A stretch of 64,000 nucleotides of DNA from Candidatus Nitrosocosmicus franklandus (lineage in GTDB: Archaea > Thermoproteota > Nitrososphaeria > Nitrososphaerales > Nitrososphaeraceae), in NCBI RefSeq assembly GCF_900696045.1, contig NZ_LR216287.1:620001-684000 (forward strand), written 5' to 3'. The notes beneath the pieces were generated by a model, which was not told where the DNA came from, searched no databases, and saw nothing but the letters and a program-made list of their open reading frames with translations. Made by a program: the position numbers and the translations under genes. The stretch's first letter is position 1. Each line of letters starts with the position of its first letter. Below, one piece after another: positions 2,472 through 53,319 of this stretch.

Positions 2472-2807
2472 TTACATTCTTACTGGCTTTTCGCCAACAA
2501 TCTTTAACATCCAAATCATACCCAATACTTCGATTACAGTTAGGACAGAGAGAGCATAGATGCCACTAGGTAACGGATATGCCCATGGATAAACAGTAAC
2601 ACCTACGTAAACACCACCAGCTGTAGCAACCCAACATAAAATAAAGCCCAATACTATAATTCCCTTCATATTTTCGACTCTTCGGCCGATCATACGTTCG
2701 ATTTCATCGCGACTTGCTCCATATGAACCACCGCCACTACCGCCACTACCGCCACTACTACCTGAACCGGTTTGTCCACTAGGTTTATACCCTTTTGGTA
2801 AAGTCAT
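2472..2807 (-). CDS. amoX: Ammonia monooxygenase-associated protein AmoX
   Basis: A 111-residue protein that I recognise as the small AmoX protein found beside archaeal amoA genes. The first 30 residues are a low-complexity Gly/Ser segment (GSGSSGGSGGSGGGSYG). An acidic-basic helix follows (RDEIERMIGRRVENMKG), then two hydrophobic segments, the second ending in GEKPVRM. It is conserved among ammonia-oxidising archaea and thought to be an extra subunit of the monooxygenase; no catalytic role is known. It is transcribed ahead of amoA on the same strand, and both genes have their own TATA-like sequence. Confidence 0.88.
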   Translation of the reverse strand: MTLPKGYKPSGQTGSGSSGGSGGSGGGSYGASRDEIERMIGRRVENMKGIIVLGFILCWVATAGGVYVGVTVYPWAYPLPSGIYALSVLTVIEVLGMIWMLKIVGEKPVRM

Positions 2808-2828
2808 TACATGTAATTAAGATAATAC

Positions 2829-2841
2829 CTTTTTAAATTTT
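2829..2841 (-). promoter_or_regulatory. TATA-like box for amoX
   Basis: The minus strand shows AATTTAAAAAGG centred about 27 bases before the amoX ATG, the spacing expected for an archaeal TATA/BRE element of a leaderless mRNA. Pattern-based. Confidence 0.4.
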
Positions 2842-2942
2842 GCTATACCTGCTTAAACTTTAATAAGAGGTATTTTGTTGGCAGGAAAAATGTAAAACAG
2901 GTCAACTAAAAAGGAGAGTGAAAGAGATTAAAAAAATATACC

Positions 2943-2949
2943 TATATAT
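2943..2949 (+). promoter_or_regulatory. TATA-like box for pdxS
   Basis: TATATAT lies 21 to 27 bases before the GTG start of pdxS. It is a plausible promoter for the pdxS-pdxT pair and supports the GTG at base 2970 as the translated start. Confidence 0.4.
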
Positions 2950-2969
2950 CGTTTTAGCCAATAGATCAT

Positions 2970-3941
2970 GTGGCTATCTCATTGGTACCCTGGAATAGAA
3001 AATCAGAGCGTCAAGAAATCTTTGAGGGAAAGAACAACAGAAAAACAAAAGGTAGTGTATTAGTTAAGAGGGGATTTGCTCACATGCAAAAGCATGGAGT
3101 AATTATGGACGTTACAAGTGTAGAACAAGCTCAAATTGCTGAGGAATCTGGCGCAGTTGCGGTTATGGTATTGGATAAATTGCCTTTTGATGTGCGAAAA
3201 GCTGGAGGAGTTGCAAGAACTGCAGGTGTAAAAATTATTCAAGATATTATGGACTCCGTCTCAATTCCCATAATGGCCAAGTGTAGAATTGGACATGTCG
3301 CAGAAGCAGAAATGTTGGAGACTTGTGGTGTAGATATGGTCGACGAGAGTGAGGTACTAACTCCAGCTGATGATGAAAACCACATTTGGAAATGGGACTT
3401 CACTGTTCCTTTCGTAAATGGTGCAAAGAATCTGGGTGAGGCGTTAAGAAGAATTGAGGAAGGCGCTTCAATGATTAGAACAAAAGGAGAGCCAGGGACA
3501 GGAAATGTGGCCGAAGCTGTTAACCACATCAAGATTCTTAACAAAGAAGTTCGAATGATACGTGGCGCTTATGCTGATAATGATTTTCAAGAGCTCATTA
3601 AGCTTTCAAGAAAATTCAGGGTATCCCTAGAAATGGTAAAAGAAGTGGGAAAATTAGGTCGGCTTCCAGTAGTAAATTTTGCAGCTGGAGGAATAACTAC
3701 TCCTTCGGACGCTGCATTCTTAATGAGACTTGGATGTGACGGTGTATTTGTCGGATCTGGAATATTTAAATCAGAGGATCCATCTTTACGAGCTAGAGCA
3801 GTGGTCTTGGCTACAACTTTTTTTGATGATGACAAAACTTTGCTTGAAGCCCAAAAAATGATAGATGAGAAGAAATCACTAGTTGGGTTAGATACAAAGA
3901 ATCTAGAACTCAGAATGCAAGAAAGAGGACCTGTTATCTAA
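2970..3941 (+). CDS. pdxS: Pyridoxal 5'-phosphate synthase, PdxS subunit
   Basis: A 323-residue TIM-barrel synthase that makes pyridoxal 5'-phosphate from ribose 5-phosphate, glyceraldehyde 3-phosphate and ammonia supplied by PdxT. Typical PdxS motifs are [21 protein letters not shown] near residue 42, [11 protein letters not shown], the TKGEPGTGN phosphate loop and the second phosphate site [13 protein letters not shown]. The GTG at 2970 is the only sensible start before the conserved core and gives an N-terminus about 30 residues longer than bacterial PdxS, within the archaeal range. The stop codon overlaps the pdxT start by one base (TAATG), so the pair is cotranslated. Confidence 0.96.
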
Positions 3942-4597
3942 TGACAAAGCTTAAAATCGCAATATTAGGCATCCAAGGAGACATTGAAGAAAATTATAAT
4001 GCAGTTAAGGCATCGATAAAGGATCTAAATACAGAAGGAGAGGTAATTCGCTTAAAAAATATTGATGCTCTTGAAGATTTGGATGGGTTAGTAATACCCG
4101 GAGGAGAGAGCACGGTGATGGGAACATTGCTGTCTCTTCAAAAAATGCAGTTACAATTGTTACGAAACAAGATAATTAAAGGACTACCTGTTTTAGGAAC
4201 GTGTGCAGGCCTCATCCTTTTGGCTAGCAAAGCATATGACAAGAACGTTGGTGAAACAAATCAACATCTATTACAACTACTAGATGTCACTGTTGAAAGA
4301 AATGCATTCGGAAGACAAAGGGAGTCATTTGAAACTTACTTAGATATTCCCATTTTGGGAGAAGAACTTTTTAGAGGAGTTTTCATCAGGGGTCCAATAA
4401 TCAATAACATAGGGAAGAACGTGCAGATCTTAACGAAATTCGAAGAAAAGATTGTTGCTGTACGCCAAGATAATATAATTGGGACGTCATTTCATCCTGA
4501 ACTTGCGGACGACAACAGATTTCATCAGGTATTTCTAGATATTTGCATAAGATACAACAAATTAAAGGAAATTGATGGAGATAATCATAAAGAGTAA
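3941..4597 (+). CDS. pdxT: Pyridoxal 5'-phosphate synthase glutaminase subunit PdxT
   Basis: A 218-residue class I glutaminase that hydrolyses glutamine and passes ammonia to PdxS. The substrate-binding loop PGGEST is near residue 49, the nucleophile cysteine lies in GTCAGL near residue 87, and the His-Glu pair is in FHPEL near residue 186. Start and stop coupling with pdxS is a TAATG overlap. Length is slightly above bacterial PdxT, mostly a short C-terminal extension. Confidence 0.96.
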   Translation: MTKLKIAILGIQGDIEENYNAVKASIKDLNTEGEVIRLKNIDALEDLDGLVIPGGESTVMGTLLSLQKMQLQLLRNKIIKGLPVLGTCAGLILLASKAYDKNVGETNQHLLQLLDVTVERNAFGRQRESFETYLDIPILGEELFRGVFIRGPIINNIGKNVQILTKFEEKIVAVRQDNIIGTSFHPELADDNRFHQVFLDICIRYNKLKEIDGDNHKE

Positions 4598-4770
4598 AAG
4601 TTTGCTATCAAATAGACGATAGAATGACATCATTTTAAATAATCTTACTTTTGATTAGTTTAAAGGAATCTTAAACTCATAATAATTATTGACAATAACA
4701 TTATAAACTACTTTATATTCGGTTTTCTTATGCTTATAATCCTTCATGAGGGTACACTAAACTTCTCAAG

Positions 4771-4886
4771 TGCGGGAGGTGGGATTTGAACCCACGAACC
4801 CCTGAGAGACGGGATCCCTTATATGGATCTTAAGTCCCGCGTCTCCAAAATGAAATATTTATTTGGCCAGGCTCTACAACCCCCGC
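4771..4886 (-). tRNA. tRNA-Leu(TAA) with canonical intron and probable second D-loop intron
   Basis: On the minus strand a class II tRNA can be folded: acceptor GCGGGGG with CTCCCGC plus discriminator A, T-arm GTGGG-TTCAAAT-CCCAC, a variable-arm stem CTC-TCA-GGG, and anticodon arm CGGGA-CTTAAGA-TCCCG with anticodon TAA. A 13-base intron (4816-4828) interrupts the standard site between positions 37 and 38. The gene is still about 17 bases too long: the D-loop after GGCCAA carries an AT-rich hairpin (CCAAA...TTTGG) that looks like a second intron. The D-stem (GTA with GAC) is imperfect in any reading I tried, so exact D-arm boundaries are uncertain. Confidence 0.8.
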
Positions 4887-6326
4887 CCATTAACCTTATT
4901 TCTAAAATGGTTATATATATCATGAATTCTGCTAGTAGATCCTTCGACAAGTACGAAATCAAGTTTCAGCAAATCAACCTCCTAAGAATAAATGAACATA
5001 CAATCTTGTTGATGAACAAATCATACAAGAATACTATTTTGGGAAGAAAATAATCAAAAAGAGCAGGTATTAGTACAATAAATAAACCAGAATATAAATA
5101 AAAATATGGGTTTGATAAAGTTCATTTGGACAATTTCTATGTCGATCGTTGTGATCAACTAGGGATACTAGCTAATTTATCTGAAATTAACGGTGATATG
5201 GTGAAATCTTAGAACTACAGTAATCTTTCCACAGATGTTTGTATAATATGATTATTCGTTAGTAATCCACTAGTATTACGAATATTATAGTACCTAAAAC
5301 TCCCACATCAAGGAACCTGACAGGTGGAACTAGATCCATATTCACAAAATCTCTCTAAAGAACTCTGTTTATGGAATGATAATAACATATTTTAGATTAT
5401 CTTTGTCTTCTTTTTATAGTTCAGTTTTACTCCTTATCAAACTATGATTTGATACTCACATCCTAAATGCATGTTCTTCCTCTTGCACAGTGGGAAAAAA
5501 TGCGCGGCTTATTTTCAGTCATTGATGCATCAAAATTTAGAAGATAGATCAAGTTCAGATGCTTCCAATTGATTAGGTTCCAATCTCGTTGAAATCACTC
5601 GTAGCAAGAGTACAGAATGGTAACATAGATCGCATATTTGATCAATCTCAATATAGAGGTGGTTTGCACTTTCCACTATTCTTATTGAATTGAATTCTAC
5701 TATGACAATTTGACTTACAAATATGTTTTAGAATACTAACCCGTATTGAGAATGTCATGTTAACCATGTCTCCTCTAAATTTGATAAAGTCAACCAAATT
5801 TAACTAAATTTGGTGTTTAACTGCTTCTAAAATTTACTATGAAATTATAAATTCTTGATTCAAGATTTTCCGTTTATAGATTGGTGTAACTAGTACCAAG
5901 GGATCGAGAAATTTGCTTTTAAATTTGAAGATATTTAATTCGGCCTGACTTTGACAACGTATAGTAAATCCTATCCATAAGGAATCAAGTTTTTTTAGGT
6001 TTGTAGATGCATTGGAAGATTTATTTTTGGTAAAACAAGAATCATTGCTATCGAATATGCTTTGAGTGTACAGTTATTATTACCTCAACTTATGAGAGAT
6101 ATAAAGAATGAGTTAAATTTTCTCAAATTATATGAAAAATTGTGAATATTACAAGTTCAAGCATTCTAGTATTAGAGGACAACTGAAAATGAGATGAGCA
6201 GATAATTCAATACAATGTTAACAAAGTGTTGGTATAGATATCCAGAACCAAAAAAAAGTCTTAAAAATTCTTTCTTTAGAGTTATTATAATTCAACTTCA
6301 TATATGAACTATTGCAATAGACGATA
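4887..6326 (+). other. Long gene-poor region
   Basis: No intact gene is visible over about 1.4 kb. Small open stretches look like remnants: a minus-strand frame open at 5530-5727 (66 codons without a normal start; it contains EIDQICDLCYHSVLLLR) and a plus-strand piece near 6050-6145 reading EYALSVQLLLPQLMRDIKNE. Neither is assignable. A perfect palindrome with 10-base arms lies at 5794-5815. Confidence 0.5.
5794..5815. repeat. Perfect 10-bp palindrome
   Basis: ACCAAATTTA, two spacer bases AC, then the exact reverse complement TAAATTTGGT. It lies inside a long non-coding gap with no gene nearby in either direction. It could be a dimeric protein-binding site or an AT-rich hairpin; nothing more can be said from sequence. 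Confidence 0.6.
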
Positions 6327-6980
6327 ATGATTGATAAAAGATCTATCGCGACTAAGCAATTCATATTTACTTATATTGTTACGATCTTTCTTGTAACAGT
6401 ACCTTTAGTAGGATCAGGAATAAGTGTTCTTGGACAAAATGCCACAATGCCGTATATAGTTAATGAAACCATTATTGATGACTATTATTACTATGGACAA
6501 CCAATTTACTATACTGAAGATGAAGATGACGACGACAATTCTGATAGTGACAATGACAACTCGAATGAAGGGAACAACTATTACTATATTGATAACAATG
6601 GTAAAGTTTACTACAAGGACGAGAATAATAACTTTTATTACACTGATGTTGAAGGTCACCACTATTGGTATGACAATGATGGTCACAAGTACTATTGTGT
6701 AGATCACAATCATAACCAGAAATTCTATTATGATGACAATGGTAACAAAGTAGCCCATGATGAAAAAGGAGATAGTAGAACTGCTTATGATAGTCATTCA
6801 AGTGGTACTCACGTCTACTATTCGATTTTCAATAATGGTAACCACGTCCAATTAAGCGGCGGCGGATCATTTATTCATCATGATGGTATCATCCATGATC
6901 ATTCGAGTGGTGGCCTTTCACCTCAAAGTGGCTTTTCGTTACATGAAGGCGAAGAATTTAGAGGTCATGGAGGTAGATGA
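6327..6980 (+). CDS. Secreted Tyr/Asp/Asn/His-rich repeat protein
   Basis: A 217-residue protein of unknown function. Residues 1-36 are a signal peptide (basic start, hydrophobic core, cleavage likely near VLGQ). The mature part is acidic and extremely rich in Tyr, Asp, Asn, His and Gly. Residues about 82-142 contain roughly six degenerate repeats of 9-11 residues of the type YYxDxxGxx (for example YYIDNNGKV, YYKDENNNF, YWYDNDGHK, YYDDNGNKV). The C-terminus is Gly/His-rich and ends RGHGGR. There is no anchor, so it is probably released or cell-surface associated. The Asp/Asn/His content suggests metal binding; that is inference. It stands alone between long gaps. Confidence 0.7.
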   Translation: MIDKRSIATKQFIFTYIVTIFLVTVPLVGSGISVLGQNATMPYIVNETIIDDYYYYGQPIYYTEDEDDDDNSDSDNDNSNEGNNYYYIDNNGKVYYKDENNNFYYTDVEGHHYWYDNDGHKYYCVDHNHNQKFYYDDNGNKVAHDEKGDSRTAYDSHSSGTHVYYSIFNNGNHVQLSGGGSFIHHDGIIHDHSSGGLSPQSGFSLHEGEEFRGHGGR

Positions 6981-18341: not shown

Positions 18342-19181
18342 GTGATTTCTCGTAACGAGATTTACTGTGAGGATTGCATTACGTTCATGGAAAAGATTAG
18401 AGTAAATAACGATTTAAAGATTGATGTTATAGTAACATCACCTCCTTATAATATAGGTAAAAAATACAACGTCTATAAAGATAATATCAACGAGAATGAT
18501 TATCTAGAATGGCTTTACAGAATTGCCGAAAAAAGTTACTCCATATTAAAGCCTAATGGATCTTTTTTTTTAAACATTGCAGAGCGATCAACAAATCCTT
18601 TAATTCCATTTCGTGCAGTAACTAAATTCTTGTGTGCGGGTTATAAAATACAAAATACCATACATTGGATAAAATCGATTTCAGTTGAGAAGGAGGACAT
18701 TGGAAATACCAATCCTGTACACAATGATGGGTTCTCAATTGGTCATTATAAACCAATTAGGAGTAACAGGTTCTTAACTAATACTCATGAATATGTTTTC
18801 CATTTTACTAAGACAGGAAATCTACCTATTGACAAGTTATCAATAGGAGTACCTTACCAGGATAAGACAAATGTTAAAAGATGGCAATCCGTAAATCAGG
18901 ATAAAAGAGATAGAGGAAATGTATGGTTTATTACATATCCTACAATACGACGAGAAAGATCCCATCCTGCAGTATTCCCTCAAAAATTGGCTAGATTATG
19001 TATAAAACTCCATGGATGTAATAAAAAAGATTTCATTGTTTACGATCCTTTTATGGGGATAGGTAACACTGCATTGGCCTGTATCGATCTAGGGATAGAC
19101 TATGTAGGTACTGAAATAGACAATAATTATATCGAATATGCCAGAAAGGTAATTTCAAAGAAAAAAAATTCACATCAATAG
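18342..19181 (+). CDS. DNA methyltransferase, beta class, probably N4-cytosine
   Basis: A 279-residue SAM-dependent DNA methyltransferase. The catalytic motif SPPYN is at residues 33-37 and the SAM-binding motif FMGIGN starts near residue 237, followed by GTEIDNNYIEYA. Catalytic motif first and SAM motif last, with the target-recognition region between, is the beta-class order. SPPY (rather than DPPY) favours N4-methylcytosine, although N6-adenine cannot be excluded. GTG start. No restriction endonuclease gene lies beside it, so it is an orphan enzyme for marking or regulation, or a remnant of a restriction system. Confidence 0.88.
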   Translation: MISRNEIYCEDCITFMEKIRVNNDLKIDVIVTSPPYNIGKKYNVYKDNINENDYLEWLYRIAEKSYSILKPNGSFFLNIAERSTNPLIPFRAVTKFLCAGYKIQNTIHWIKSISVEKEDIGNTNPVHNDGFSIGHYKPIRSNRFLTNTHEYVFHFTKTGNLPIDKLSIGVPYQDKTNVKRWQSVNQDKRDRGNVWFITYPTIRRERSHPAVFPQKLARLCIKLHGCNKKDFIVYDPFMGIGNTALACIDLGIDYVGTEIDNNYIEYARKVISKKKNSHQ

Positions 19182-21192: not shown

Positions 21193-21366
21193 ATGGTACT
21201 TCGCAACAAAGTTACCTCCAGATGCATTGTTTGTAGAACTGAATTAAATGGTTTTAATACTAAGGTGGTCGAAAATCCAAGATACTTAAAGTACAGGAGT
21301 CTAGTCTGCAATACTTGCTTTGATGAATATTATCCTATACATCAAGATAAGTATGAGAACAGATAG
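21193..21366 (+). CDS. 57-residue zinc-ribbon protein
   Basis: A short ATG-TAG frame encoding a basic protein with two CxxC pairs: CIVC at residues 11-14 and CNTC at residues 39-42. The 24-residue spacing gives a classical four-Cys zinc ribbon. The N-terminus is basic (LRNKVTSR) and the C-terminus is rich in Tyr and Asp. It lies just downstream of the Clp1-like kinase and may share its transcript. The perfect cysteine spacing argues that it is real. Function unknown, possibly nucleic-acid binding. Confidence 0.7.
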   Translation: MVLRNKVTSRCIVCRTELNGFNTKVVENPRYLKYRSLVCNTCFDEYYPIHQDKYENR

Positions 21367-21651: not shown

Positions 21652-22869
21652 ATGATAAATACTATGAATCTACTTGAGAATGTATCCTCTATTACTTCAT
21701 TTTCGCAAGTATTACATGATTTGATAGGTTCAAATCCCGAAATAATAAAAGACTGTATTCGCCTTAATGGATTTTTAAAAGATGTTTTTGGCTCTACCTA
21801 CAAAAAAGAAATTTTTCTCATTATTAGAGCAGCAAAGTTAGACATCATAAATCAATTGAATGACGAAATCGACGGAAAGCCTATAACTGCTAAATTATAT
21901 GATATCATGTCAAAATTTATTTTAAATGGTATGTTAGACGAAGAATCGGCCGTTTGGGTTACGATTGTATGGGCAGTTACTCTTCAAAAGATAGAAGCTA
22001 AAGAAGGTCAGCAAGTCATGGAGAATTGCAGATCCATTTTACCCGAATTGCAGAAAAAACGATCACCCATATGCATCTCGCATGACCCGATTTCAAACCT
22101 AGTAACCGTAAACGCATCTCCAATCGATCAGATACACAAAAAAGGTAAATGTTATCATAATCAAGGGAATTATGATGAAGCAATAAGATGTTATGACAGA
22201 GCCTTTTCGATAAATCCACAAGACTATAATATATTATCAGATAAAGGATTATCTCTCCATAATCAAGGGAATTATGATGAAGCAATAAGATGTTATGACA
22301 GAGCCCTTTCGATAAATCCACAAGATGAGTTTGTGAAAAGGAGAAGGGATAACACAATAAAACGCTTAGAGAAAAAATTTGAAAAAACAAACTCAAGGTC
22401 ACACCCATCTGCAAATTCCCCCCCCTCTAGTTTTAGAAGAAATTTGTCTAAAAATTATCTTGTTGGGATAATAGTCGTTACTCCAGGTATGATTATTGGA
22501 TTAGCAGTTTTATTGGGTTTGAGTTACGATAATCCGGGCATAAATATACCAACTGGCGGGTTTATAAATGATGGAGAAAATTCGACAGAAAAAACTAATT
22601 TGCCTAGTGCAGATTTAAATCCAATCAAGCCACTTGACCAACAATCAATATCTACATTTGCGGATAGCATTAAACAGCAAATAGTATCAAACACATCTAC
22701 TGGCAAGGGACTTTCTAACAACGATACAAGTATTCAAAATTCTAGAGATTATTACACGGACATAGATGAGACATTGCAGCAGCGGCTGAACGAGGCAGGA
22801 GATATTAACTACAGACTGAATGAATTTAAATTCGAATTAGAACGAGCCATGGAGAGTAATTTTAATTGA
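21652..22869 (+). CDS. TPR-repeat membrane protein with signalling-type N-terminal domain
   Basis: A 405-residue protein. Residues about 10-120 form a helical domain with the pattern NPEIIKD..R..GFLKDVFG..YKKEI....A and, at the end, DEESAVW....WA. From memory this pattern is found in bacterial proteins encoded beside protein kinases, vWA proteins and chaperone-like genes. Two TPR units, almost identical to each other, follow at about residues 165-232 (NQGNYDEAIRCYDRA). A single membrane helix is near residues 268-288 (VGIIVVTPGMIIGLAVLLG). The last 115 residues, predicted outside, are Ser/Asn-rich with a helical end. It is convergent with the PP2C gene 45 bases away and may be the membrane partner of that cassette. 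Confidence 0.75.
   Translation: MINTMNLLENVSSITSFSQVLHDLIGSNPEIIKDCIRLNGFLKDVFGSTYKKEIFLIIRAAKLDIINQLNDEIDGKPITAKLYDIMSKFILNGMLDEESAVWVTIVWAVTLQKIEAKEGQQVMENCRSILPELQKKRSPICISHDPISNLVTVNASPIDQIHKKGKCYHNQGNYDEAIRCYDRAFSINPQDYNILSDKGLSLHNQGNYDEAIRCYDRALSINPQDEFVKRRRDNTIKRLEKKFEKTNSRSHPSANSPPSSFRRNLSKNYLVGIIVVTPGMIIGLAVLLGLSYDNPGINIPTGGFINDGENSTEKTNLPSADLNPIKPLDQQSISTFADSIKQQIVSNTSTGKGLSNNDTSIQNSRDYYTDIDETLQQRLNEAGDINYRLNEFKFELERAMESNFN
22156..22328 (+). repeat. Tandem 102-bp unit encoding near-identical TPRs
   Basis: About 70 bases at 22156-22226 recur at 22258-22328 with one mismatch. The offset is 102 bases, exactly one 34-residue TPR. Near identity at DNA level indicates a recent duplication or ongoing gene conversion inside the gene. 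Confidence 0.9.
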
Positions 22870-22914
22870 ACCGTATAAATTACAATACATACAAAAACCA
22901 GGTCCAGAATTATT

Positions 22915-23841
22915 TTATTGATTAATCTTATAGAGGTATCCAAGAGTAATATCGTCTCCACTACCCTTCTGCGAGGTTTCCTTTAACAAGAATTCCAATT
23001 TACTCTGAATGTACTGCTGTCCATAATTATCCAAGATATCTAGATAATCTGTTCCTATCTTACGAAAGCCTGTTTCATCCTTAAAAGAATTATAGTAGCC
23101 GTCGGTAGTAAGCAATATCAATCTAGGCTTTAAATCATAGATGGAATATATGCCAACTTTAAATCTTAACCAGCTAGATTCCATGCATAATGAATCAGTA
23201 GTGTTTAGCGTTACTACACTTTTTTTGTCATCGCTGTCATTGATATTTTTTTCAAACGGTGCTATTACGTTCCTATGTTCATCTACTACTAGAATATTAC
23301 CATCACCTATTTGGAAAAATAGAAAATAATCTTTTGTAACTGCGACAGTTAGTAAGGTTGATCCATACGCAATTTGTGGATGTCTTTCTAGTTTATCCTT
23401 AGAAGAAGGGTCTTTTTTACCTAAAAATTTGTCAAGTTCGTAGGTTGTAAAAGGGTTCCGATTAATGTGACTAGTTACTCTGTTATTCCAATTTTTTACC
23501 AATATTCTCGGTATTGAATATCTAATAATATCCCTTACTGACGAAAAAGTATTGGAACTCGAATGACATTGGGTGATGAATCTAAACATTGTCTGAGTAG
23601 CAATCTTTGCAGCAATATTGGATCCGAATTTGCTTCTGAAATAAGTATCACTTCCATGTCCATCTGCAACAGATAATATGCCGATATCCTCTTGCTTGGA
23701 GTACCTCCAATAGATAGAATCCTGATTTGATATATGTTCACGCTCATGACTAGCGCCTCGCACGCTGGCGCCATATATTAACCAATTTCTTCTATCTACA
23801 GAAATATATTGTTGATCCGAGAGAGAGCCCACTACCTTCAT
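22915..23841 (-). CDS. PP2C-family protein phosphatase
   Basis: A 308-residue metal-dependent Ser/Thr phosphatase. Key motifs are NQDS near residue 39, ADGHGS near residue 60, AYGSTLLTVAV, the QIGDGNILVVD strand pair, and LLTTDGYYNSF with the metal-binding Asp near residue 246. It lies 16 bases after the kinase gene on the same strand, so both are in one transcript and it likely reverses that kinase's phosphorylation. No membrane segment, so cytosolic. It is the downstream end of the vWA-kinase-PP2C set. Confidence 0.92.
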   Translation of the reverse strand: MKVVGSLSDQQYISVDRRNWLIYGASVRGASHEREHISNQDSIYWRYSKQEDIGILSVADGHGSDTYFRSKFGSNIAAKIATQTMFRFITQCHSSSNTFSSVRDIIRYSIPRILVKNWNNRVTSHINRNPFTTYELDKFLGKKDPSSKDKLERHPQIAYGSTLLTVAVTKDYFLFFQIGDGNILVVDEHRNVIAPFEKNINDSDDKKSVVTLNTTDSLCMESSWLRFKVGIYSIYDLKPRLILLTTDGYYNSFKDETGFRKIGTDYLDILDNYGQQYIQSKLEFLLKETSQKGSGDDITLGYLYKINQ

Positions 23842-23857
23842 AAATAATCAGAGTTGC

Positions 23858-25312
23858 TTAATAGTAGATAATCCCTTTAGAAGTACCGAAATCAATCGTA
23901 ATATTTGGACTTAGAAGAAGATTTTGATTTGGCAATACCTCAAATGCTTTAGAATTAGGTTTTTCAACTTTCCAGATTCTGCTAGATGTGTTTTTTAATC
24001 CCCATACTTCATCATCGACTGGATGTTTAGTAACCGCAGCAATAACATGTGAGAAATCATATCTATTACACGGATCCACATGGTGTAAAAATATTCGAGT
24101 ATCATGATTTAAGGTGATAAAATAACGCTCATCAATTATAATGTACATGACCTTGTGACTAGTATTTTGACATCGTGGGTTCCAGCAAGTCAAGTAATAG
24201 TCATTCTCTTTTAAATGTAGCATACTTTGCAGAACAGTCGAGACAGAATTATCATAATTGGTAATATTCTTATTAATATTCCTCAAACGTGAAACTTCTA
24301 CATTAATAGGATAGAAGAAATTTTCTGACCCACATTTATTACAATAATAGATGGAGTCACGCAGTTGGAGTAAAGCGATTTGCCATTCTGTTTCTCTTAC
24401 ACGTCCATGCAAAGGATCCCTAATTCCTTCTGTGAATGCTTTTATGAAAAGGTTCTTGAAAAACTCGGGATAAATTTTCCAAAATATCAGAGCGTTTTTG
24501 TGATATACAGGATCTGGATGATTAGATGAATCCACAGGGTCAAAAATGAAAACAGGATTGAGACCATATAGTTTGGTCATGGCCGGAACATCAAGGCTTT
24601 TTATATTGCTTTCGGCTTTACCTTCCAAAGGATGATTTACAAACAAGATGTAGAATAGCAACACAGCAAGTGAGTACAGATCAGTCTGAGTATTTGGCAA
24701 AGCCTTGTGGGTAATTATCTCGGGTGCCATAAATTTTGGAGTGCCAATAACATTTCCTTTTTCGGATCCATTGATTATAATATTATCAGTATCGCCAATT
24801 CTTATTTCACCAGTACAAGGATCAAAGTACAAATTATTCAACGACAGATCCTGGTAACAGAATCCTTTTGAATGTAACAGATGAAAACTTTTACAAATTT
24901 CATAACAAGCAGTCAAAAGAACTTTAAAGGAAGGATCTATCTTTCTGGACAACCACAAACCAAAACTCTTGAATCTATTCTCTTTTAGTGGCATTACATA
25001 TCCAAATCCTTCTTTCTTGTCACTTTCAACAAGAGCAATAGGCCAAAGGAATTTATCACTAGGAGATTGTTTATCGACTAAAGATTTTAGAATCTCGAGC
25101 TGTTCCCTTGTAGCCATAGAAGGAAAATACCACTTTAATGCCAATAGAGAATTGTCTGGAGATATAAGAGAATAGACTTTACCTTGAGTACCGGATCCCA
25201 TCTCCTTCTCGACATTGCAAATCATATTTAGTTGTTCAACATATATTGGTTCACCGAGTTCAAAGTCGTAAGATTTGGTCATTTTAGTTTTCAATACCAT
25301 GGAAGTTACCAA
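23858..25312 (-). CDS. Serine/threonine protein kinase with C-terminal zinc ribbon
   Basis: A 484-residue protein. The kinase domain covers about residues 30-320: Gly loop GSGTQGKVY, LALKWY with the ATP-binding lysine, YQDLSLNN where HRDLKxxN is usual, GDTDN in place of DFG, and GTPKFMAPE. The catalytic and metal-binding Asp and the Asn are kept, so activity is likely despite the altered HRD and DFG triplets. After the kinase come CNKCGSENFF and, about 70 residues on, CWNPRC, a zinc ribbon. A C-terminal beta-rich region of about 100 residues follows. The start overlaps the vWA gene end by 7 bases; internal Met codons at residues 5 or 11 would avoid this. This architecture is the kinase of TerY-P triads. 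Confidence 0.88.
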   Translation of the reverse strand: MVTSMVLKTKMTKSYDFELGEPIYVEQLNMICNVEKEMGSGTQGKVYSLISPDNSLLALKWYFPSMATREQLEILKSLVDKQSPSDKFLWPIALVESDKKEGFGYVMPLKENRFKSFGLWLSRKIDPSFKVLLTACYEICKSFHLLHSKGFCYQDLSLNNLYFDPCTGEIRIGDTDNIIINGSEKGNVIGTPKFMAPEIITHKALPNTQTDLYSLAVLLFYILFVNHPLEGKAESNIKSLDVPAMTKLYGLNPVFIFDPVDSSNHPDPVYHKNALIFWKIYPEFFKNLFIKAFTEGIRDPLHGRVRETEWQIALLQLRDSIYYCNKCGSENFFYPINVEVSRLRNINKNITNYDNSVSTVLQSMLHLKENDYYLTCWNPRCQNTSHKVMYIIIDERYFITLNHDTRIFLHHVDPCNRYDFSHVIAAVTKHPVDDEVWGLKNTSSRIWKVEKPNSKAFEVLPNQNLLLSPNITIDFGTSKGIIYY

Positions 25313-26007
25313 ACTTCGGTTGCTGTGTAAATCATTTCAGGAGGTTTGGGGATCTGTACATTTAATTCCGGTTTAATCATATCTTTTTGTTGGCTTTTAG
25401 GTCGTGCAGAAGCAGATTGAACCACGGTAGAGACCCATCTGATATAATTTGAAAGAGCCTCCGGATTTCGAGCTAGGAGTGGTTTCATATCATCATTTCT
25501 TATAAAATTCTCCAGCACTCTCGTGTCTGCATCCTCTCCAATCGCTATAGCAATTCGAATTGCCTTTTTACCCCAGGGTTCATTTAGTAACTTTTCTAAT
25601 CCATATTCATAATTATCAGTGGGTTGTCCGTCAGACAAAAGTACCAAGACTGGAGGTAATCCTCTATTTGTCATTGGTGGGATGTGCAACATCTCAGATA
25701 ACAGCATGAAAGCCTGCCCTAGATCTGTGTGTCCCTTCGCTTCTACATCTACCCATTTGAAATCGTTAATGTGCGTGGGTGGAATAAACCATTGAGCACC
25801 AGTTGAAAATCTTAGCGCGCTAATCAAAAGATTGGCTTGTATATTATTCTCGGCTTCCCTTTGCATATGAGGTATAGCTTCTCTTATAGCATAGTTCAAA
25901 GATTGTATCTTTCCATCATCCTTCATAGAGCCAGAACAATCTACGATCCATACAAAATGGAGCTCCCTTTTTGTGATTTCGCCGCCTGGAAGAGTCATAA
26001 AATTCAA
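25306..26007 (-). CDS. TerY-like von Willebrand factor A protein
   Basis: A 233-residue vWA domain protein. The metal-ion-dependent adhesion site is complete: DCSGSM near residue 23, Thr in GHTDLG near residue 96, and Asp in LLSDGQPTD near residue 131. There is no signal peptide, so it is cytosolic like bacterial TerY. The last 30 residues are a Pro/Lys-rich tail. It is the first gene of the cassette and overlaps the kinase start. In TerY-P systems the vWA protein is thought to be a scaffold or substrate of the kinase/phosphatase pair. That role is from family knowledge. Confidence 0.9.
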   Translation of the reverse strand: MNFMTLPGGEITKRELHFVWIVDCSGSMKDDGKIQSLNYAIREAIPHMQREAENNIQANLLISALRFSTGAQWFIPPTHINDFKWVDVEAKGHTDLGQAFMLLSEMLHIPPMTNRGLPPVLVLLSDGQPTDNYEYGLEKLLNEPWGKKAIRIAIAIGEDADTRVLENFIRNDDMKPLLARNPEALSNYIRWVSTVVQSASARPKSQQKDMIKPELNVQIPKPPEMIYTATEVW

Positions 26008-26462: not shown

Positions 26463-26822
26463 TTACCTATCTCTATCCAAGGAAATATTGTTTCGAATGT
26501 TATTAATAGAATTTAATCCCTCCTTCCCGATCGAAACGATCTTGTTTGTAATTTGAATAGTTTTAGCTGCTGCCTTTGGCATTTCGTTCACTAAATTTGT
26601 TGTCAACCCTGTAAGCTGCTTTACGGTATCTTTGAAGGAGCCATCAGTCATATTCTGGCTGGATCTTAAAATCGAATCTCTGATATGTCTTGTTACCTCG
26701 CTTTCCGAACTTAGTTGCATTTTATCACTAGGAACGCCAGAATTAATGTTACTATTCGTGGTAACATCATCAAGGATCTTATTTGAAATGAAATCTGCCT
26801 CATGATCATTGGATTCCCGCAC
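26463..26822 (-). CDS. Small hypothetical protein
   Basis: A 119-residue acidic-to-basic protein of unknown family with a GTG start. The first half is polar and low in complexity. The second half (about residues 62-115) is predicted helical, with regularly spaced hydrophobic residues (LTTNLVNEMPKAAAKTIQITN), suggesting a coiled coil or amphipathic helices. No cysteine or membrane segments. It lies between the signalling cassette and the SRP RNA gene without clear operon partners. Confidence 0.45.
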   Translation of the reverse strand: MRESNDHEADFISNKILDDVTTNSNINSGVPSDKMQLSSESEVTRHIRDSILRSSQNMTDGSFKDTVKQLTGLTTNLVNEMPKAAAKTIQITNKIVSIGKEGLNSINNIRNNISLDRDR

Positions 26823-53220: not shown

Positions 53221-53319
53221 GGTGGGGTGGCAGAGCGGCCATGCGTTCGCCTGCAGATTAGATCATGGGTTTCAGTGGTAGATAGCGAATTTATAAGGGT
53301 TCGAATCCCTTCCCCACCT
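53221..53319 (+). tRNA. tRNA-Cys(GCA) with a 27-base intron
   Basis: Acceptor GGTGGGG with CCCCACC and discriminator T, D-stem GCA-TGC, anticodon arm TTCGC-CTGCAGA-GCGAA with anticodon GCA, T-arm AAGGG-TTCGAAT-CCCTT. The canonical 37/38 intron is 53257-53283. The D-arm TGGCAGAGCGGCCATGC is typical of tRNA-Cys. Confidence 0.95.

Follow-up and report, generated by a model that had tools for sequence, protein, structure and literature searches.

TerY-P (TerY-phosphorylation) systems are defined by a TerY-like vWA protein, a PP2C phosphatase and a Ser/Thr protein kinase fused C-terminally to a zinc ribbon (PMC11090510; the triad is also described in PMC4978471). In the antiphage TerY-P system of Gao et al. 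2020, the kinase tail is an OB-fold (PMC11090510). In actinobacterial GAP1-N2 sets, PP2C and a lone vWA protein accompany a kinase that carries a zinc ribbon and a beta-rich domain (PMC7159879), and the prophage-borne KKP system is an operon of two eukaryote-like kinases and a phosphatase that forms a phosphorylation switch (PMC11341870). Here we analysed a 64,000-nucleotide stretch (the window, positions 620001-684000) of the closed 2.84 Mb genome of Candidatus Nitrosocosmicus franklandus (G000). Nitrosocosmicus is a genus of ammonia-oxidising archaea. Four genes of the window form a module (21652-26007): three minus-strand genes, which our data support as an archaeal TerY-P triad, and a convergent plus-strand gene for a membrane TPR protein, the N-terminal domain of which (N-domain) recurs beside triads in unrelated bacteria.

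The triad and its described relatives

The sequence itself gives the residues of the module, the homology of its domains, its linkage and the signals of topology. All three components of the published definition (PMC11090510) are present in the minus-strand genes. Profile searches of the four proteins, as proposed in an earlier note on this DNA, recovered PP2C_2 (1.1e-32), Pkinase (3.5e-19), TPR_1 (7.3e-21) and, slightly under the Pfam cut-off, VWA_2 (3.2e-5). Residues were compared in alignments of ten Nitrosocosmicus sequences per protein (nine for PP2C). The metal-ion-dependent adhesion site (MIDAS) of the vWA protein (D23, S25, S27, T94 and D126), the GxGxxG loop, K60, D155, N160 and D174 of the kinase, and D41, D60, D247 and D296/D297 of PP2C are invariant, as are the four cysteines of the kinase zinc ribbon. 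The full MIDAS and the C-terminal ribbon described in the earlier note are thus confirmed.

The vWA protein matches its counterpart in a Klebsiella ter cluster (E 8e-17), and the kinase matches the one adjoining the Klebsiella ter vWA, TerD and PP2C genes (E 7e-29). In the Klebsiella record examined, the homologues are clustered with TerD, PP2C and a TerY-C protein, and tblastn found homologues on >2,200 plasmid records, mostly enterobacterial. The closest relatives are bacterial and are found on a Methylomonas plasmid (56% identity for vWA, 40% for the kinase), in Defluviitaleaceae (53% and 39%) and in a genome of the G071 phylum (Lentisphaeraceae centre; 51% and 40%). The placement of the kinase and the vWA protein within TerY-P, on which the earlier note had made its proposal depend, is therefore supported by the definition and by the ter-plasmid homologues. 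TerD (PF02342) was found in none of the 15 Nitrosocosmicus genomes, with positive controls detected, indicating a TerY-P triad without a Ter system and not a tellurite-resistance operon. The PADLOC TerY model did not match the window vWA protein at E <= 0.1; PADLOC defence models matched the kinase domain only, through generic kinase models, and were rejected.

The kinase tail looks FHA-like. In the AlphaFold2 (AF2) model, the predicted local distance difference test score (pLDDT) is 70-89 across most of this region, and the top 50 VIA matches are all FHA or FHA-containing structures (best Z 10.6 over 92 residues). Foldseek gives a probability of 1.0 but an E value of 0.035. FHA domains read phosphothreonine peptides.

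The locus shares with bacterial TerY-P triads the operon of vWA, PP2C and kinase-zinc ribbon genes, the same enzyme residues and sequence homology, but it is archaeal, lacks TerD, has a membrane TPR partner with the triad-associated N-domain and carries a predicted FHA-like kinase end. Kinase, phosphatase and vWA protein are also common to the antiphage system of Gao et al. 2020, from which the locus differs by its zinc ribbon and modelled FHA-like tail, the unmatched PADLOC TerY model and the lack of a defence island. It resembles the GAP1-N2 sets in gene content, except that here the beta-rich domain is read as FHA-like; a GAP1-N2 GTPase, HSP70 or FNIII gene was not recognised among the neighbouring open reading frames (ORFs). 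KKP, likewise an operon with kinase and phosphatase genes, has neither a vWA protein nor an N-domain partner. Parts of CoCoNuT Type II/III-A systems (McrB-type GTPase, CnuH helicase, HEPN nuclease) were not recognised on reading the neighbouring ORFs, for which no dedicated search was made.

Our ORF calls reproduce the positions, strands and spacings of the four genes given in the earlier note: 45 bases separate the convergent stops of the TPR and PP2C genes, and 16 bases lie between PP2C and kinase. The 7-base overlap of the vWA and kinase genes stands as called, but it requires a TTG start of the kinase at 25312, and downstream ATGs are available. Since most vWA orthologues read M-TLPGGE, the true vWA start is probably the ATG at about 25998. 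The ratio of nonsynonymous to synonymous substitution rates (dN/dS) is lowest in vWA (0.05-0.07) and rises through the kinase (0.10-0.13) and PP2C (0.14-0.19) to the TPR protein (0.27-0.39), the fastest-evolving of the four. All four are thus under purifying selection and represent real genes, not chance ORFs.

The TPR partner and its N-domain

The TPR partner consists of the helical N-domain, two TPRs, one transmembrane helix and a Ser/Thr/Asn-rich tail that ends in a conserved FKxELEkAMxSNF motif. The helix, which the earlier note had also recognised, is present in 10/10 orthologues, with Lys and Arg enriched before it; due to this excess of positive charge, the N-domain and TPRs are predicted to be cytosolic and the tail to lie outside. 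Within each genome, the two TPRs share 88-96% DNA identity, usually more than the same repeat shares between species, and judging from the DNA the pair is under concerted evolution.

The N-domain (about 100 residues) has no match in Pfam or NCBIfam. Its AF2 model is all-helical (pLDDT 86), and the best Foldseek E values are 1.0 in the PDB and 0.32 in BFVD. A Bcl-2-like bundle was considered, but the best VIA Z score of 5.8 is too weak for helical bundles, and no fold was assigned.

On the Methylomonas plasmid (CP157007), five tandem genes carrying the N-domain (hmmsearch 1.6e-9 to 4e-7) come directly after the triad; they are the sole further matches among 798 ORFs. The remainders of these proteins comprise Sel1 repeats, a Tim44-like domain, a ClpA N-domain, a ClpX zinc finger and one unassigned part. 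This was the only record found when plasmids were searched with the N-domain. Blind profile searches covered 289 genomes of the G071 phylum and 378 of the G070 phylum; the bacterial sampling left out actinobacteria, cyanobacteria and chloroflexi, and several of the bacterial loci are on draft genomes or contigs of metagenome-assembled genomes. The G071 phylum yielded one strong match (G237, L100; 9.6e-13), and the G070 phylum yielded strong matches in G1032 (L117; 6.6e-19) and G762 (L118; 2.6e-10 and 2.1e-9). In all three genomes an N-domain gene directly adjoins a complete triad, with three such genes around the triad of G762, and the partner C-termini are Sel1 plus FGE, FGE, unassigned and RCC1. 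A weaker match (7.6e-5) was obtained in G070 itself (Defluviitaleaceae), where the triad lies on a different contig. A match in G786 (5.4e-4) was rejected, as the protein appears to be a DNA polymerase III alpha subunit. The suggestion in the earlier note that such a domain occurs beside these kinases in bacteria is therefore borne out at the Methylomonas, G237, G1032 and G762 triads.

Two archaea of another family (G507 and G711) encode an LRR protein divergent from the triad, with a weak, position-matched N-domain match (5.5e-4 and 0.011; the only further ones in 1,457 ORFs). Judging from this match, the N-domain probably also occurs beside the triad in a second archaeal lineage. Outside triad-bearing Nitrosocosmicus, no confident copy was detected in 379 Thermoproteota genomes.

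Across the loci scanned, the N-domain profile matched only partner genes and never the kinase, vWA or PP2C. In this respect the N-domain differs from effector-associated domains (EADs; PMC7159879), which are defined by a copy on a core component, although both are small, mostly helical and non-enzymatic and occur in tandem genes with changing C-termini around a constant core; Pfam EAD models gave no match to the N-domain.

The recurrence of the N-domain beside triads in unrelated bacteria and, probably, another archaeal lineage suggests that it plugs variable partner proteins into the TerY-P switch. As a tentative extension, it could be a general docking code for a large subset of TerY-P systems, with one core, interchangeable TPR, Sel1, LRR, RCC1, FGE or Clp-adaptor recognition proteins and a transmembrane receptor as the Nitrosocosmicus version. 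From gammaproteobacteria to archaea, the N-domain always has a gene of its own, joined to varying recognition parts, and it is a concrete, testable candidate for how TerY-P switches get input or reach their targets. By sequence, the triad is a further TerY-P member. We found no account of TerY-P in Nitrosocosmicus, of a triad-associated N-domain or of a membrane-linked Ser/Thr phosphorylation pathway of bacterial origin in ammonia-oxidising archaea in the literature searched, which did not include the 2012 paper by Anantharaman et al., reportedly the founding TerY-P paper.

Inheritance of the module in Nitrosocosmicus

Kinase and vWA genes are present in 12/15 Nitrosocosmicus genomes and in 0/55 genomes from other genera of the same family. 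Eleven of the 12 carriers have the module at the same site with the same flanks, and in each of these main-lineage genomes the TPR gene lies next to the triad. In G012, G013, G014 and G015 the native site is empty, and a CLP1-like gene and the gene for a small CxxC protein lead directly to signal recognition particle RNA and the thermosome. The four genes and a gene for a 119-residue protein are jointly missing there. The latter was found in 10/10 triad loci whose sequence covered its position, with no match at the empty sites; a fifth member or a substrate is a possible role for its product.

The simplest history is that the module was gained once, in the ancestor of the larger Nitrosocosmicus clade, and the best reading is horizontal acquisition followed by stable, vertical inheritance. 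Contamination is excluded for G000, G007 and G008, since these triad carriers are single-contig genomes. Outside the genus, this kinase type was found only in G507 and G711 among the 379 Thermoproteota genomes, where kinase and vWA branch with Prevotella. Viral contigs contained no relative of the kinase or of the N-domain. Tandem triads on a G009 contig (C255) are arranged as an inverted duplication and were set aside as an assembly artefact.

Table 1. Features of the module and its borders (window coordinates)
Feature	Position	Strand	Basis
Small CxxC...CxxC (zinc-protein) gene	21193-21366		Conserved at filled and empty sites; left edge of inserted module
TPR partner protein, 405 aa	21652..22869	+	ORF, Pfam, adjacency in main-lineage genomes (11/11)
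N-domain, about residues 10-116, signature RlxGxLKD...A.W...W	21679..21999	+	Homology to bacterial triad partners
Two tandem TPRs, homogenised copies	22129..22329	+	Pfam and DNA comparison
Single transmembrane helix, residues 270-288, N-terminus predicted inside	22459..22515	+	Hydropathy and flanking charge
PP2C-type Ser/Thr phosphatase	22915..23841	-	PP2C_2 (PF13672); metal-binding Asp intact
Ser/Thr protein kinase; zinc ribbon and predicted FHA-like beta domain at the C-terminal end	23858..25312	-	Pkinase (PF00069); catalytic residues complete
FHA-like beta domain of kinase (predicted), about residues 387-484	23861..24154	-	AF2 and structure matches
Kinase zinc ribbon CxxC...CxxxxC (C324, C327, C376, C381)	24170..24343	-	Invariant in 10/10 aligned kinases
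TerY-like vWA protein, full MIDAS (DxSxS...T...D)	25306..26007	-	Residues and homology
119-aa Ser/Asn-rich protein, family unassigned	26463..26822	-	Only where triad occurs

A gene for a type II-like DNA methyltransferase (18342-19181) is present in every main-lineage triad genome that covers this stretch, and is missing from the corresponding region in G012, G014 and G015; for G013, only part of the region is covered. G015 contains a second, divergent TerY-P triad (L030, 1005-12979) with a 47% identical kinase, PP2C fused to TPRs, a separate TPR gene and a transposase. A HerA-type ATPase gene lies next to a weak NurA match at this locus, and the N-domain was not found there.

Proposed switch and alternative explanations

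On balance, we consider it probable that the module is a phosphorylation switch, horizontally gained once, that is docked via the N-domain to a single-pass membrane TPR protein and serves envelope or stress signalling; docking, signal direction and physiological role are what we infer. The cytosolic N-domain of the partner would dock on the kinase or the vWA protein, and kinase access or activity would change through the TPRs and outward tail of the partner or through a ligand bound to them. The kinase would then phosphorylate the partner and/or downstream targets, its FHA-like tail may hold the phosphorylated form, and PP2C would reset the switch. The vWA protein with its MIDAS and the zinc ribbon would set the assembly, or tie the switch to metal, partner or nucleic acid. 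In Nitrosocosmicus, such a module would act as a vertically inherited envelope or stress signalling switch. More tentatively, the membrane partner could be a receptor through which signals from outside reach a soluble kinase of eukaryote-like type. For ammonia-oxidising archaea, about whose signalling little is known, the module would point to a membrane-linked Ser/Thr phosphorylation pathway acquired from bacteria.

Several observations weigh against this switch. The mean pLDDT of the kinase model is only 57 and Pfam FHA does not match the kinase tail; the outward tail of the partner is poorly conserved save for the last dozen residues. No N-domain was found near the Prevotella, Klebsiella ter, second G015 and L021 triads (L021 within its own contig). 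The linkage of TPR gene and triad within Nitrosocosmicus is one vertical event, and co-transcription is not implied, since the TPR gene is convergent.

It is rather doubtful that the membrane TPR protein is mainly a substrate or anchor by which the kinase is kept at the membrane, in the service of envelope or chaperone quality control and without ligand sensing. Partners elsewhere do carry repeat or protease-adaptor parts (TPR, Sel1, Tim44-like, ClpA-N, ClpX zinc finger), and the TPR pair is homogenised, not diversified, within the gene; however, the FGE, LRR and RCC1 versions resemble recognition surfaces and not anchors, and the evidence for a membrane helix covers the Nitrosocosmicus partner only.

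We regard it as unlikely that N-domain proteins are effectors of an antiviral or suicide switch, which kinase activation would release or recruit to act at the membrane or on proteolysis. This explanation is kept alive by the variable C-termini of the bacterial partners, as found in conflict systems, by TIR-Sel1 (L117) and NB-ARC (L110) genes near two triads and by TerY-P modules that act against phages (PMC7699616; PMC11090510). The HerA gene and weak NurA match at the second G015 triad fit as well, and in KKP the phosphatase restrains kinase toxicity (PMC11341870). In Nitrosocosmicus, however, the locus is stable, its neighbours are housekeeping genes and it contains neither a nuclease nor a toxin; all 11 genomes share the same partner architecture, and the PADLOC TerY model misses the vWA protein. 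Given this stable setting and the lack of TerD, there is no indication of a mobile defence system at this locus. The constant architecture and its vertical inheritance in Nitrosocosmicus lead us to favour a domesticated switch for the envelope or stress over a mobile defence system.

That triad and TPR gene are unrelated neighbours co-inherited by chance is strongly disfavoured and very improbable: the convergent orientation, the single vertical event and the abundance of TPR repeats in this archaeal family would allow it, but the N-domain with different C-termini beside triads in Methylomonas, G237, G1032 and G762 and the joint absence of triad and TPR gene at the empty site argue against it. 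The linkage of the TPR gene, on which the earlier note had also made its proposal depend, has thus held within the genus and has bacterial parallels.

Two neighbouring genes outside Nitrosocosmicus should be noted. On L117, the gene for a TIR-zinc-ribbon-Sel1 protein (5504-6754) lies past the triad and its N-domain/FGE partner, on the same strand. On L110, the archaeal triad of G711 has a gene for a nucleoside-phosphorylase/NB-ARC/TPR protein (2744-5032) in its vicinity. Elsewhere in the window, 53221-53319 is a tRNA according to Rfam, but not according to ARAGORN; it spans 99 bases, perhaps with an intron.

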